NCBI GenBank assembly: GCA_021845835.1
Contig: JAJZVE010000318.1
Location: 1 to 5,914 of the forward strand
Direction: 5' to 3'
Origin: Pseudomonadota bacterium
Lineage (GTDB): Bacteria; Pseudomonadota; Alphaproteobacteria; Acetobacterales; Acetobacteraceae
DNA: 5,914 bases
In this document: positions 1,166 to 3,197 of the stretch, piece by piece
Numbering within the stretch: the first letter of the stretch is position 1
How the letters are laid out: the number at the start of each line of letters is the position of its first letter
Notes under the pieces: model-generated
Databases searched by the model: none
Seen by the model: the letters and a program-made list of their open reading frames with translations, nothing else
What the model was told of the DNA's origin: nothing
Translations under genes and position numbers: made by a program

Positions 1166-1975
1166 ATGGCTGGCGTTGTGGGACGGGTGGCGCTGATCAC
1201 CGGGGCGGGGAGCACGACGGGCATCGGCTTTGCGTGCGCCAAGGCGCTCGCGGCGGCAGGGGCACGAGTGGCAATTACCTCCACCACGGCGCGTATCTTC
1301 GAGCGGCAGGCGGAACTCGGCGCCAGTACCCATGCCGCGGTGGCCGACCTGACCCGGCTAGAGGCTGTGGCGGACCTGGTCGCGGGCGTCGCCGATCTGC
1401 TGGGGCCGGTGGATATTCTCGTCAATAACGCCGGCATGGTGCAGATGGGGCGCGACGAACCCTCCGTGCGGCTATCCGAGCAAAGTGATGAAGGTTGGGC
1501 CTACGGCCTTGCCATCAATCTCACCAGCGCCTTCCTTCTGACTCGTGCGGTACTGCCGGGGATGCGGGCCCGCGGCCACGGCCGGATAGTGCAGATGTCC
1601 TCGGTCACGGGGCCGCTTACGGGCATCGCAGGGTCCGGCACATATGCGGCTGCCAAGGCGGGGTTATTGGGCATGACCCGTGCGCTGGCGCTGGAAGAGG
1701 GGCCGCACGGGATCACCGCGAATTGCATCGGACCGGGCTGGATCGCCACCGGCTCGTCGAGTGAGGCGGAGCGGACCGCCGGCCGCTTCACCCCTATCGG
1801 CCGGCCTGGCAGGCCGGAGGAGGTGGCTCATGCCGCCCTGTTCCCGGCGGCCGACGAGGCGAGCTACATCACTGGCCAAATGATCGTTGTTGACGGCGGC
1901 AACACGATTCAGGAATACAAGGTGGCGCTGCCGGGGCTGTCGGATGACCGGCTCTCATCACGGCCAAACAGGTAA
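1166..1975 (+). CDS. Short-chain dehydrogenase/reductase (SDR), FabG-like
   Basis: This is a 269-residue classical SDR, an NAD(P)H-dependent alcohol dehydrogenase or ketone reductase of the cytoplasm. The cofactor motif TGAGSTTGIG spans residues 12-21, one residue longer than the usual TGxxxGIG. NNAG is at 87-90 and the structural/catalytic Asn is at about 118 (AINLT). The catalytic residues are Ser146, Tyr160 and Lys164 (YAAAK at 160-164). After the second half (ITANCIGPGWIATG, then VVDGG at 241-245) the typical family end near TIQEYK is followed by about 17 extra residues that look unlike conserved sequence. This tail is encoded partly over the antisense 3' end of argC, with an 18-nt overlap, so it may be a simple run-on to the next stop. 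The substrate cannot be read from the sequence: FabG-like proteins reduce 3-oxoacyl chains, sugars, steroids and many other ketones. No partner gene lies beside it on the same strand. Confidence 0.92.
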   Translation: MAGVVGRVALITGAGSTTGIGFACAKALAAAGARVAITSTTARIFERQAELGASTHAAVADLTRLEAVADLVAGVADLLGPVDILVNNAGMVQMGRDEPSVRLSEQSDEGWAYGLAINLTSAFLLTRAVLPGMRARGHGRIVQMSSVTGPLTGIAGSGTYAAAKAGLLGMTRALALEEGPHGITANCIGPGWIATGSSSEAERTAGRFTPIGRPGRPEEVAHAALFPAADEASYITGQMIVVDGGNTIQEYKVALPGLSDDRLSSRPNR

Positions 1976-2935
1976 GCCATCCAGGCCCGCGGTTTCGGGC
2001 AGGCCGCAGATCAGGTTCGCATTCTGCACGGCCTGCCCGGCCGCTCCCTTGCCGAGATTATCGACCACGCCCATCGCAATCACCAGGTTGCGCTCCGGAT
2101 CGGCGGCATAGCTGACGAACGCGAGGTTCGATCCGGTCGCCCATTTGGTTTGCGGCGGCTTGTCGGTCACGCGGACGAACGCCCGCCCTTCGTAGAAGAG
2201 GCGGGCCGCGTCCAGGCATTGGCCCGTGGCGGCGCGGCCGCGACAGTAAATGGTGGCGAGTACGCCGCGGGTCATCGGAACCAGATGTGGCGTGAACACC
2301 AGCCCGGTGGCGCTACCGCCACTCAGCTGCTCGATCGTCTTGGCGATCTCGGGCATGTGGACGTGCTTGAGCAAACCGTAGGGCAGCAGATTCTCGTTGC
2401 TCTCGGCGTAGCCCAGCTTGGTGTTGGCACCGCCCCGGCCGGCACCGGAGATGCCAGTCTTGGCGTCGATCACGATGTTGCCAGGCTCGATCAAATTGTT
2501 GACCAACAGCGGCGCCAGCGCGGTCAGCGTCGCCGCGGGGAAGCAGCCGGGGTTGGCCACGCGGATCTGGCCTTCGATCCGCTCTGGCCAGATATCGGCG
2601 AGGCCATACGCCCAACCCTCGACGTAGCGATGGTCGCCGCCGATATCGACGATCCTCACGTCGTTCGGGACGCGTTCCAGCGCTTCGGTCGAGGTGCCTG
2701 TGGGCAGCGACGCGAACAGCACGTCGAGCTTCGGCAGCGTTGCAGGGTTCCACGTCTCGATCACCAGCTCGGCCAATTTGGCCGGCACACCGGGAAAGCG
2801 GTCCCCCAACCGGCTGCCGGCGCTGCCTTCGCCCGCAGCGTAGATAAGCTCAAAAGAGGGGTGGCTCGCGACGAGGCGCATCGCCTCGCCACCGCCAAAG
2901 CCACTGATCCCGACAATGCCGACGCGAATGCTCAT
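1958..2935 (-). CDS. argC: N-acetyl-gamma-glutamyl-phosphate reductase (ArgC)
   Basis: This protein of 325 residues catalyses the third step of arginine biosynthesis: NADPH-dependent reduction of N-acetyl-glutamyl-5-phosphate to the semialdehyde, in the cytoplasm. The N-terminal nucleotide-binding motif GISGFGG (residues 9-15) has the GxxGxxG spacing. The catalytic Cys131 sits in ANPGCFPAA, GISGAGR is at 161-167, and the catalytic-His region is HVHMPEI (191-197). FTPHLVPMTRGVLATIY (214-230) and VDNLGKGAAGQAVQN (291-305) are typical of the longer ArgC type. The start at 2935 is chosen over an in-frame ATG at 2962 because AAGGA (minus strand, 2947-2943) lies 7 nt before it and because the family begins at the glycine motif. 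The Cys motif has Phe-Pro-Ala-Ala where Tyr-Pro-Thr is common, which is a mild deviation. No other arginine gene is visible. The gene is preceded by an arginine-rich leader frame and a terminator, so expression is probably controlled by attenuation. Confidence 0.96.
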   Translation of the reverse strand: MSIRVGIVGISGFGGGEAMRLVASHPSFELIYAAGEGSAGSRLGDRFPGVPAKLAELVIETWNPATLPKLDVLFASLPTGTSTEALERVPNDVRIVDIGGDHRYVEGWAYGLADIWPERIEGQIRVANPGCFPAATLTALAPLLVNNLIEPGNIVIDAKTGISGAGRGGANTKLGYAESNENLLPYGLLKHVHMPEIAKTIEQLSGGSATGLVFTPHLVPMTRGVLATIYCRGRAATGQCLDAARLFYEGRAFVRVTDKPPQTKWATGSNLAFVSYAADPERNLVIAMGVVDNLGKGAAGQAVQNANLICGLPETAGLDGLPVWP

Positions 2936-2942
2936 GGTGGTA

Positions 2943-2947
2943 TCCTT
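2943..2947 (-). promoter_or_regulatory. Ribosome binding site of argC
   Basis: AAGGA on the minus strand, 7 nt before the ATG at 2935. It decides this start over the upstream in-frame ATG at 2962 and lies after the leader terminator, so only read-through transcripts would carry it. Confidence 0.75.
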
Positions 2948-2960
2948 CTCAGGTTCGGGC

Positions 2961-2985
2961 AAAACAAAACCCCCGGAGCCGAGGG
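2961..2985 (-). terminator. Intrinsic terminator in the argC leader (attenuator)
   Basis: On the minus strand the segment reads CCCTCGGCTCCGGGGG (2985-2970) and then TTTTGTTTT (2969-2961). The stem pairs 2985-2980 with 2975-2970: six pairs, one of them U-G, with a 4-nt GCTC loop. The T-rich tail follows at once. It sits between the leader reading frame and the argC ribosome binding site, about 25 nt before the argC start. A terminator directly upstream of its own gene only makes sense if it is conditional. Confidence 0.75.
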
Positions 2986-3016
2986 CTGCGGAGGTTCAGG
3001 AACGCGGGCCGGGACC

Positions 3017-3022
3017 GCTCCG
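3017..3022 (-). promoter_or_regulatory. Candidate antiterminator strand in the argC leader
   Basis: CGGAGC (minus strand, 3022-3017) is the exact complement of GCTCCG at 2979-2974, which forms the loop and start of the 3' arm of the terminator. Pairing the two would exclude the terminator stem. It lies 11 nt after the leader stop codon, so a ribosome paused at that stop could cover it, while a ribosome stalled earlier at the Arg codons would leave it free. The pairing is seen in sequence only; no folding energy was computed. Confidence 0.4.
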
Positions 3023-3033
3023 ACGTGTGGGAC

Positions 3034-3147
3034 TCAGGGTGAGGCCGTCACCACGCGGAAGGACGCTGATCGACGCGCGGCCCAAAACGCCGCCGCTCGG
3101 GTGAAGCGGCGTCGGCGTCGATCACAAAGGGTCTGGTTCCCGAACAT
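3034..3147 (-). CDS. Arginine-rich leader peptide upstream of argC
   Basis: This is a 37-codon frame from ATG at 3147 to TGA at 3034, beginning MFGNQTLCD. Residues 10-14 are five consecutive Arg (codons CGA CGC CGA CGC CGC), with further Arg at 17, 25, 26 and 31, nine in all. Four of the nine are CGA, usually an uncommon codon in GC-rich genomes. A weak AGGG lies 8 nt before the ATG. In-frame ATGs also exist upstream at 3177 and 3171, so the true start is open. The frame is followed by an intrinsic terminator and argC, a gene of arginine synthesis. By analogy with his, trp and leu leader peptides, its translation is inferred to report charged tRNA-Arg supply, so the peptide itself probably has no function. 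Arg-rich frames arise by chance in GC-rich DNA; here position and terminator argue against chance. Confidence 0.65.
   Translation of the reverse strand: MFGNQTLCDRRRRRFTRAAAFWAARRSASFRVVTASP
3088..3114 (-). promoter_or_regulatory. Hairpin overlapping the Arg codons of the leader (1:2 / pause-type structure)
   Basis: On the minus strand CGCCGCT (3111-3105) pairs with AGCGGCG (3097-3091) across a 7-nt loop. After one A-G mismatch, two further pairs reach 3114/3088. The 5' arm lies in the run of five Arg codons, so a ribosome stalled there would prevent it forming. TTTT follows at 3087-3084, so it could pause polymerase. This is the expected position of the first stem in a classic attenuator. 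Confidence 0.5.
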
Positions 3148-3175
3148 GGGAGTCACCCTGTCGGGACTCATGTTC
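3142..3175 (-). repeat. Inverted repeat spanning the leader-peptide start
   Basis: GAACATGGGAGTC (plus strand, 3142-3154) and GACTCATGTTC (3165-3175) are complementary over 11 positions, with a 2-nt bulge and a 10-nt spacer. In RNA from the minus strand, the ATG of the leader peptide (3147) lies in the stem and its weak AGGG in the loop. It could be a translation-controlling hairpin or a DNA operator; nothing here decides. Confidence 0.5.
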
Positions 3176-3182
3176 ATCGTCA

Positions 3183-3197
3183 AGCGGAATGTCCGCT
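3183..3197. repeat. Perfect 6-bp inverted repeat upstream of the argC leader
   Basis: AGCGGA (3183-3188), ATG, TCCGCT (3192-3197) form a perfect 15-nt inverted repeat. On the minus strand it abuts TTGACG (3183-3178), a fair -35 hexamer, but no matching -10 is seen 16-18 nt further on. It may be an operator or part of a dispersed repeat. Confidence 0.35.

Follow-up and report, generated by a model that had tools for sequence, protein, structure and literature searches.

Directly upstream of argC in the window (the whole stretch of 5,914 nucleotides analysed here) lies a leader on the minus strand which we read, with a probability of roughly 0.85, as a transcription attenuator of the ribosome-mediated kind, with charged Arg-tRNA as its signal and argC as its target, and which would probably restrict production of the argC product to times of arginine shortage. 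Ribosome-mediated attenuation is known for the trp, his, leu, ilv, thr and phe operons, while bacterial control of arginine synthesis is generally ascribed to repressors of the ArgR type. The type of switch is thus known for other amino acids and, as far as found, apparently new for arginine synthesis; comparative evidence from related sequences supports describing the element as a ribosome-mediated attenuator with a sensor amino acid that is new for its pathway. An Arg-codon attenuator of argC was the core of the original prediction for this DNA, and that reading has since been strengthened by the conservation of the leader, by its gene specificity, by a promoter spacing of the leaderless type and by a search of relatives in which ArgR was not found.

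Along the minus strand, the region upstream of argC presents, in this order, a promoter-like box, an open reading frame (ORF) of 37 codons, hairpins, an intrinsic terminator, a Shine-Dalgarno sequence and argC itself. The features are as follows, with the subtypes explained further below.

3155..3183, minus strand: predicted promoter, TTGACG at 3183-3178, 17 nt, then CAGGGT at 3160-3155; spacing kept among relatives
3034..3147, minus strand: leader ORF of 37 codons, MFGNQTLCDRRRRRFTRAAAFWAARRSASFRVVTASP, with ATG at 3147, stop TGA at 3036-3034 and nine Arg codons in total
3106..3120, minus strand: putative sensor, five Arg codons in a row (CGA CGC CGA CGC CGC)
3068..3123, minus strand: Arg hairpin, predicted for the state with no stalled ribosome, its 5' side being the Arg codons (minimum free energy, MFE, fold)
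3123-3116 with 3075-3068, minus strand: outer stem of the Arg hairpin, paired in 75.9% of cells of the alignment, mainly in subtype A
3076..3096, minus strand: predicted antiterminator 5' strand (RNAalifold with the Arg run omitted), which a ribosome stalled on the Arg run would free
3083-3076 with 2990-2983, minus strand: alternative pairing, with one C-A mismatch in the window, paired in 93.8% of cells
2988..3006, minus strand: predicted antiterminator 3' strand, including part of the terminator 5' arm
3017..3022, minus strand: CGGAGC, the antiterminator segment of the original prediction, with a possible extra pairing to the terminator loop and 3' arm
2961..2996, minus strand: intrinsic terminator, AACCTCCG-c-AGCC, loop, GGCT-c-CGGGGGTT, followed by TTTTGTTTT (2969-2961)
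1958..2949, minus strand: Shine-Dalgarno sequence AGAAGGA (2949-2943) and argC, start at 2935

Most of these elements had been placed correctly at the outset, including the 37-codon frame with its five consecutive Arg codons at 3120-3106 and nine Arg codons overall, the CGGAGC segment at 3022-3017, the ribosome binding site and start of argC, and the hairpin with the Arg codons on its 5' side, which is part of the MFE fold and whose inner helix pairs in 96.0% of cells across 47 aligned leaders. The terminator with its T-tail is also present, but its stem is longer than first described, running from AACCTCCG (2996) to CGGGGGTT (2968) instead of starting at 2985. The product of argC, N-acetyl-gamma-glutamyl-phosphate reductase, scores 281.1 bits with TIGR01850 against a cut-off of 233.6, and an aspartate/glutamate racemase-like gene lies upstream of the leader on the same strand. 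Taken alone, the window does not stand out: folding the entire leader gives a z-score of -1.24, the terminator scan of the window returns one site where 0.4 are expected, and a strict sigma-70 scan of the window calls no site, the predicted promoter included, so that the case is carried by conservation. A tRNA search of the window found none.

To describe this conservation, one genome per species was scanned, which gave 222 stretches with relatives of the window argC, and the best 80 of these 222 were kept. A terminator motif together with an Arg run stands directly ahead of argC in 46 of the 80 loci, and these 46 loci and the window make up a set of 47 aligned leaders, selected for the terminator motif. 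In 46 of the 47, the window included, an ATG lies in frame before the Arg run, the exception being L005. Based on the leader peptides, we assigned the leaders to two subtypes, with labels of our own: subtype A (DRRRRRC; type MLRNQNLCDRRRRRC) comprises 35 leaders including that of the window and is found in Reyranella, Bosea, Methylobacterium, Vineibacter and others, and subtype B (NRRRRC; type MGDLRLRTANRRRRCF) comprises 12 leaders, mostly from Acetobacteraceae and their kin. The original prediction proposed to test whether the Arg run, the stem pairing and the T-tail are kept among relatives with compensatory changes; all three are kept in the 47 leaders, the T-tract and terminator stem in a set that was selected for the terminator motif, but the main helices have no compensatory changes.

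Upstream regions of argC without the Arg run or terminator, which had been named beforehand as counting against the attenuator, do exist, with 34 of the 80 loci having no terminator motif adjoining argC. Four of these 34, however, have the leader farther upstream, ahead of a GNAT acetyltransferase gene (L013, L021, L023 and L055), and another (L057) starts inside argC and is thus without upstream DNA. For 29 of the 80 related argC genes, all with upstream DNA, no such leader was found either directly upstream or before GNAT. By eye, many of the leader-less relatives (e.g. L001, L018, L044 and L068) have a short sequence like TTCGCTCACTCCAGCAGTAGGACACC just ahead of the argC ATG, and leaders of subtype B retain part of it downstream of the terminator.

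The coding content of the run was assessed on four codons fixed by the model and not chosen for Arg, and all four encode Arg in 76 of 85 uncut leaders. In the other nine (L094, L105, L111, L177, L186, L198, L205, L328 and L330) three of the four do so, a single Arg having given way to Cys, Ser or Gly or, by alignment in one case, to Asp; the non-Arg codon of L094 comes from the alignment of its six-base loss. This count puts back nine leaders omitted from a codon table of 75 leaders (L082, L094, L105, L111, L177, L186, L192, L198 and L205). In that table, the first four Arg codons show 17 third-position changes and 2 others, a synonymous count that is partly circular and weak as evidence because the leaders had been picked by a pattern that demands Arg. 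An in-frame ATG is present in 77 of the 79 uncut leaders that were checked, all but L005 (the same place as L082) and L192. Among the 47 leaders selected for the terminator, 45 have the four Arg codons and two (L038 and L047) have three, the latter having lost six bases and hence a whole number of codons, and across the 47 leader peptides frame-shifting length changes are seen 3' of the Arg run, startless L005 apart. In the subtype A leaders of the codon table, Asp precedes the run in 46 of 48 cases, encoded by either GAC or GAT, and codons 2-6 of the peptide are free to vary at positions 1 and 2, as would be expected for peptides in which only the sensor codons matter. As the sensor codons double as a hairpin arm, conservation of the Arg run is partly structural and, with hairpin and codon run overlapping, cannot separate RNA structure from coding.

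In 76 of 80 leaders a TTGAC box precedes the ATG by 36-38 nt, and in 67 of them by exactly 37 nt, with a background density of TTGAC of 0.0005 per position. From this spacing, transcription is expected to start at or next to the ATG, and the leader mRNA is thus predicted to begin, probably, at the ATG itself or within 1-2 nt of it, so that the peptide would be translated from a leaderless mRNA.

We built a covariance model, R1, from the 47 leaders and ran it on whole genomes, where its E-values reach 1.5e-43 and where places with E below 1e-16 were regarded as strong. Among carriers of this argC, strong places occur in 25 of 40 and 23 of 38 genomes (two draws), and they further occur in 26 of 250 genomes in the order of the Roseomonas nepalensis genome, in 31 of 76 from the order to which Vineibacter terrae belongs and in 10 of 248 from the family that includes Bosea psychrotolerans, these draws of genomes being overlapping ones. 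The element is rare class-wide (3 of 385 genomes at E below 1e-30) and phylum-wide (2 of 398 genomes), the query genome included in both counts. There were 90 strong places in total, of which 89 were examined, one (G725) having no locus; four places with cut flanks (L124, L125, L127 and L135) are the same as L058, L045, L047 and L043 and were placed from the scan of 80 loci, and a weaker match (L115, E = 9.5e-10) beside a decayed argC was excluded from the count. Of these 89, 87 lead into this argC and two, both in one genome (G025), into GNAT alone. The leader runs straight into this argC at 77 places, in one of them (L188) via a small ORF, and reaches it via GNAT at ten, nine with GNAT only and one with GNAT and a GDSL gene. 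Since no gene among the 89 places other than argC, GNAT and the small ORF of L188 has the leader ahead of it, the leader is associated with argC and this GNAT.

Some of the individual places have features of their own. Genome G025 holds two copies of the leader (L117 and L116) before a GNAT acetyltransferase gene, with argC not found in the available downstream flank, and a search with one of these two GNATs returned no NCBIfam model above its cut-off. In L188, the small ORF between leader and argC, at about 1680-2080, is presumably SnoaL-like, judging by its look. The weaker match in genome G398 (L115) is a decayed copy in which the Arg hairpin runs straight into an apparent remnant of the C-terminal coding sequence of argC.

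With the Arg run omitted and the 3' arm of the terminator not yet made, RNAalifold pairs 3096-3076 with 3006-2988, much alike in both subtypes. This predicted antiterminator of 14 pairs is paired in 97.1% of cells, compared to 44-59% if slid by 1-3 columns, a comparison in which the helix tends to outscore its slid versions because it was derived from the very sequences scored, having been chosen and then scored on one set. The terminator stem is paired in 98.9% of cells in the 47 leaders and the alternative helix GGGCUGCG:CGCAGCCC in 93.8%. Shuffling letters among sequences reached the observed paired share in 500 of 500 cases for the Arg hairpin, 452 of 500 for the antiterminator and 500 of 500 for the terminator, and compensatory changes sought in the inner Arg hairpin, the antiterminator and the terminator of the 47 leaders were found in none of them, these helices being conserved but not covarying.

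Two other pairings were considered for the role of antiterminator. In the original prediction the switch was the pairing of CGGAGC with the terminator, and this pairing indeed forms in 89.4% of cells, includes one two-sided exchange of G-C to A-U in 9 cells and has a covariation score reached by 12 of 500 shuffles; it is, however, weaker than the helix of 3096-3076 with 3006-2988 (89.4% versus 97.1% of cells), and we therefore rejected it as the main switch and retain it as a possible addition. The pairing GGCUGCG:CGCAGCC was rejected as sole antiterminator as it shows no gain on stalling, its mean being 0.17 without a ribosome, 0.10 at Arg codon 1, 0.04 at codon 3, 0.14 at codon 5 and 0.20 at the stop, and it was replaced by the same longer helix.

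The effect of a ribosome on the pairing of the terminator 5' arm with the antiterminator segment was modelled for the 47 leaders, with five composition-keeping shuffles each. Mean pairing is 0.10 without a ribosome; a ribosome placed on Arg codon 2 raises it to 0.44, on codon 3 to 0.35 and on codon 4 to 0.27, and at the stop it is 0.13, the shuffle means being, in the same order, 0.07, 0.12, 0.11, 0.10 and 0.08. Pairing exceeds 0.5 in 4, 24, 21, 11 and 8 of the 47 leaders and in 9, 20, 17, 18 and 10 of the 235 shuffles, again in this order. The leader of the window scores 0.00 without a ribosome, 0.55, 0.07 and 0.01 at codons 2, 3 and 4, and 0.00 at the stop, and a strong effect is thus predicted for it at Arg codon 2 alone. 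Even with the ribosome at codon 2, 23 of the 47 leaders remain at or under 0.5, and in a few (e.g. L005, L019 and L073) the pairing falls below the value without a ribosome. Equilibrium folds of the full length favour the terminator in every state (mean 0.97-1.0), and antitermination must for this reason be kinetic and decided during transcription, which is also when the switch is decided in classical attenuators.

Based on these predictions, we propose that under scarce Arg-tRNA the ribosome would stall on CGA CGC CGA CGC CGC and occupy the 5' side of the Arg hairpin, allowing 3096-3076 to pair with 3006-2988 before the 3' arm of the terminator exists, and RNA polymerase would then continue into argC. 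Under ample arginine, the ribosome would clear the Arg run and the Arg hairpin would re-form behind it as it moves on, leaving the 5' arm of the terminator free, so that the terminator could form and the RNA would end near 2961. We infer that termination follows from this re-forming of the Arg hairpin, an explanation that takes the place of the one first offered, in which a ribosome at the stop codon covers CGGAGC.

The same leader could in principle be a genuine RNA switch that senses something other than charged Arg-tRNA, the Arg codons merely arising as a by-product of the GC-rich hairpin CGACGCCGACGCCGC, which a protein or metabolite would bind while the ORF stays untranslated. The structural share in the conservation of the Arg run, which is also the 5' side of the hairpin, and the freedom of peptide codons 2-6 at positions 1 and 2 are compatible with such sensing, which we nevertheless consider unlikely, since the in-frame ATG is present in 46 of 47 leaders, its distance to the promoter box is kept, two other leaders, on the distant argC described below, encode Arg runs as well, the genes under its control would be argC and the GNAT partner of argC, and Rfam searches of the window and six relatives gave nothing at or above a gathering score. 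It seems to us more improbable still that the leader acts via translation or RNA decay in place of the intrinsic terminator, in the manner of the upstream ORFs (uORFs) of speF in Salmonella and rbf in Staphylococcus aureus. Both of these published Arg-codon uORFs work otherwise than by intrinsic termination, according to the available parts of the two papers (PMC6386406, PMC13009471), and the terminator helix dominates all states at equilibrium; on the other hand, a strong terminator and T-tract are kept in the 47 aligned leaders (selected for it), the competing helix targets the 5' arm of the terminator and not the Shine-Dalgarno sequence of argC, and the terminator of the window ends 25 nt ahead of the argC start.

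Among 469 other ORFs in these GC-rich loci, 32 also have an ATG uORF with at least three Arg codons in a row upstream, which would suit a third alternative, namely that the terminator only ends the upstream transcript and that the short ORF is a chance frame in GC-rich DNA. Yet the unit travels with argC or GNAT and has a promoter box of its own, and the Arg-run detector found a leader at 0 of 27 argG (28 loci, one cut) and 1 of 29 argJ genes, where the start was set at whichever in-frame ATG or GTG came first within 120 nt and several starts are doubtful. A chance frame, against which the shared conservation of unit and argC already speaks strongly, is accordingly the explanation to which we assign only a vanishing probability, and attenuation by stalling on Arg codons remains the reading we prefer.

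The attenuators of the trp, his, leu, ilv, thr and phe operons share with the argC leader a peptide rich in one amino acid, a hairpin over the sensor codons, an intrinsic terminator and a downstream gene of the same pathway, and have a competing antiterminator such as is predicted for the argC leader; the argC leader differs in that it would sense arginine and would control argC and a GNAT gene. A known Rfam element or leader-peptide family was considered and rejected, as in the window and in six relatives all Rfam families stay below their gathering scores (the best sub-threshold match, E = 6.5, being to a miRNA family) and three leader peptides searched against NCBIfam and Pfam gave no match.

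Several published systems resemble the leader in part, as judged from the accessible portions of the papers. In Sinorhizobium meliloti, trpL/rnTrpL is an attenuator with a leaderless small ORF at the first base of the transcript, and it is thus, like the argC leader, an alphaproteobacterial attenuator with a leaderless ORF (reported for trpL, inferred for the argC leader), but it concerns tryptophan, encodes a peptide of 14 residues and has a reported role in trans (PMC10117765). Salmonella speF orf34 has two consecutive uORF Arg codons that sense arginine by ribosome pausing, upon which the mRNA refolds, but it controls ornithine decarboxylase via Rho, the ribosome-binding site and RNase G, with no intrinsic terminator before an arginine-synthesis gene in what is described (PMC6386406). 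The rbfL uORF of S. aureus likewise senses arginine restriction through Arg codons of a leader peptide, but represses rbf translation by covering its binding site, and the portion available describes no terminator (PMC13009471). The motifs uORFC-8-2 (cysS, Rhodobacterales) and uORFC-13-1, one of which is alphaproteobacterial, were also read as ribosome-mediated attenuation from sequence, but with Cys or Phe codons (PMC8632094).

The main text of that survey of RNAs in 26 genomes with the Cys and Phe uORF motifs lacks the word argC (PMC8632094), and the main text of the survey of premature terminators by Naville and Gautheret lacks the words arginine and argC. The nearest lead against novelty is a leader peptide in the promoter region of carA in Pseudomonas aeruginosa, which PMC4997734 cites together with an arginine control that acts on transcription and an attenuation possibly exerted by pyrimidines. 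Judging by titles and the beginnings of abstracts among the literature matches listed, none reports an Arg-codon attenuator of an arginine-synthesis gene, an absence that is weak evidence because papers in subscription journals, which were little covered, lie mostly outside the search.

All 41 genomes of relatives contain a second, distant argC with 28-35% identity, and the argC of the window is therefore probably a second argC; it is assigned to the arginine pathway by TIGR01850, and its role in arginine synthesis is a predicted one. A search for ArgR (PF01316) was positive in 0 of these 41 genomes and in 8 of 14 control genomes. The leader is carried by 38 of the 41 and is absent from G003, G016 and G033, and one further locus with the leader (L080) falls outside these genome-level counts. 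Copies of this argC from distant bacteria, among them records named Cupriavidus, Ramlibacter and Polaromonas, share 84-92% identity with that of the window, which fits horizontal spread of the gene. In a poorly resolved tree of argC, where good support is limited to 18 of 78 branches, the four leader labels require 19 changes versus 36.9 when shuffled, suggesting that leader and gene tend to remain together, although the leader has been repeatedly gained or lost. A simple history of the leader on this tree was rejected, as the labels cluster yet need many changes.

Arg-run leaders also occur on the distant argC, which in G006, the one leader genome typed in a class-wide search, is of the TIGR01851 kind and has a start motif also seen in the other distant argC read. 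The upstream regions comprise 34 loci from 33 relative genomes and 28 loci from the class-wide search, in which 27 of 115 genomes have the distant argC; starts were located in 50 of the 62 loci, L208 and L259 being one gene. In Bosea and its kin, all eight distant-argC loci (L210, L226-L230, L235 and L239) have an RRR leader (e.g. MITNLIRRRPTMAASARPR) followed by a GCGCGG hairpin and seven or eight T. In Reyranella and its kin, a leader of the RSRRRR type is found at eight of ten distant-argC loci (L214, L216, L220, L223, L233, L234, L237 and L260), the run being broken in the other two, and its hairpin after the run has only a weak T-tail, so that this leader may act on translation. At the other 32 distant-argC loci, the Arg-run detector found no leader. 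When aligned, both groups show a conserved TTGAC box ahead of the leader ATG. On the counts given above, Arg leaders on argG and argJ were set aside.

By eye, the leaders of the distant argC are unlike R1, and Arg leaders on argC may thus have arisen several times. We give an even chance to a joint reading in which Arg-codon attenuation arose at least three times on argC in Alphaproteobacteria that gave no ArgR match and serves these bacteria as arginine sensor, and in which one family sits on the horizontally spread second argC and GNAT and two unrelated families on the distant argC. By analogy with rnTrpL, the terminated leader RNA or the basic peptide could act in trans as well.

If the attenuator reading is true, arginine joins the amino acids that control their own synthesis via ribosome stalling and intrinsic termination, and the RNA switch would read the charging of Arg-tRNA directly in genomes where ArgR was not found. 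The leaders would also suggest that one solution was found more than once at the same step of the pathway. The leader further offers a simple test of arginine sensing in these bacteria and helps to judge when the unexplained second argC is meant to be switched on. In one of the genomes without the leader, G033 (named Reyranella massiliensis; L033, C175:3512-5380), this argC immediately follows the other argC and is without a leader of its own.
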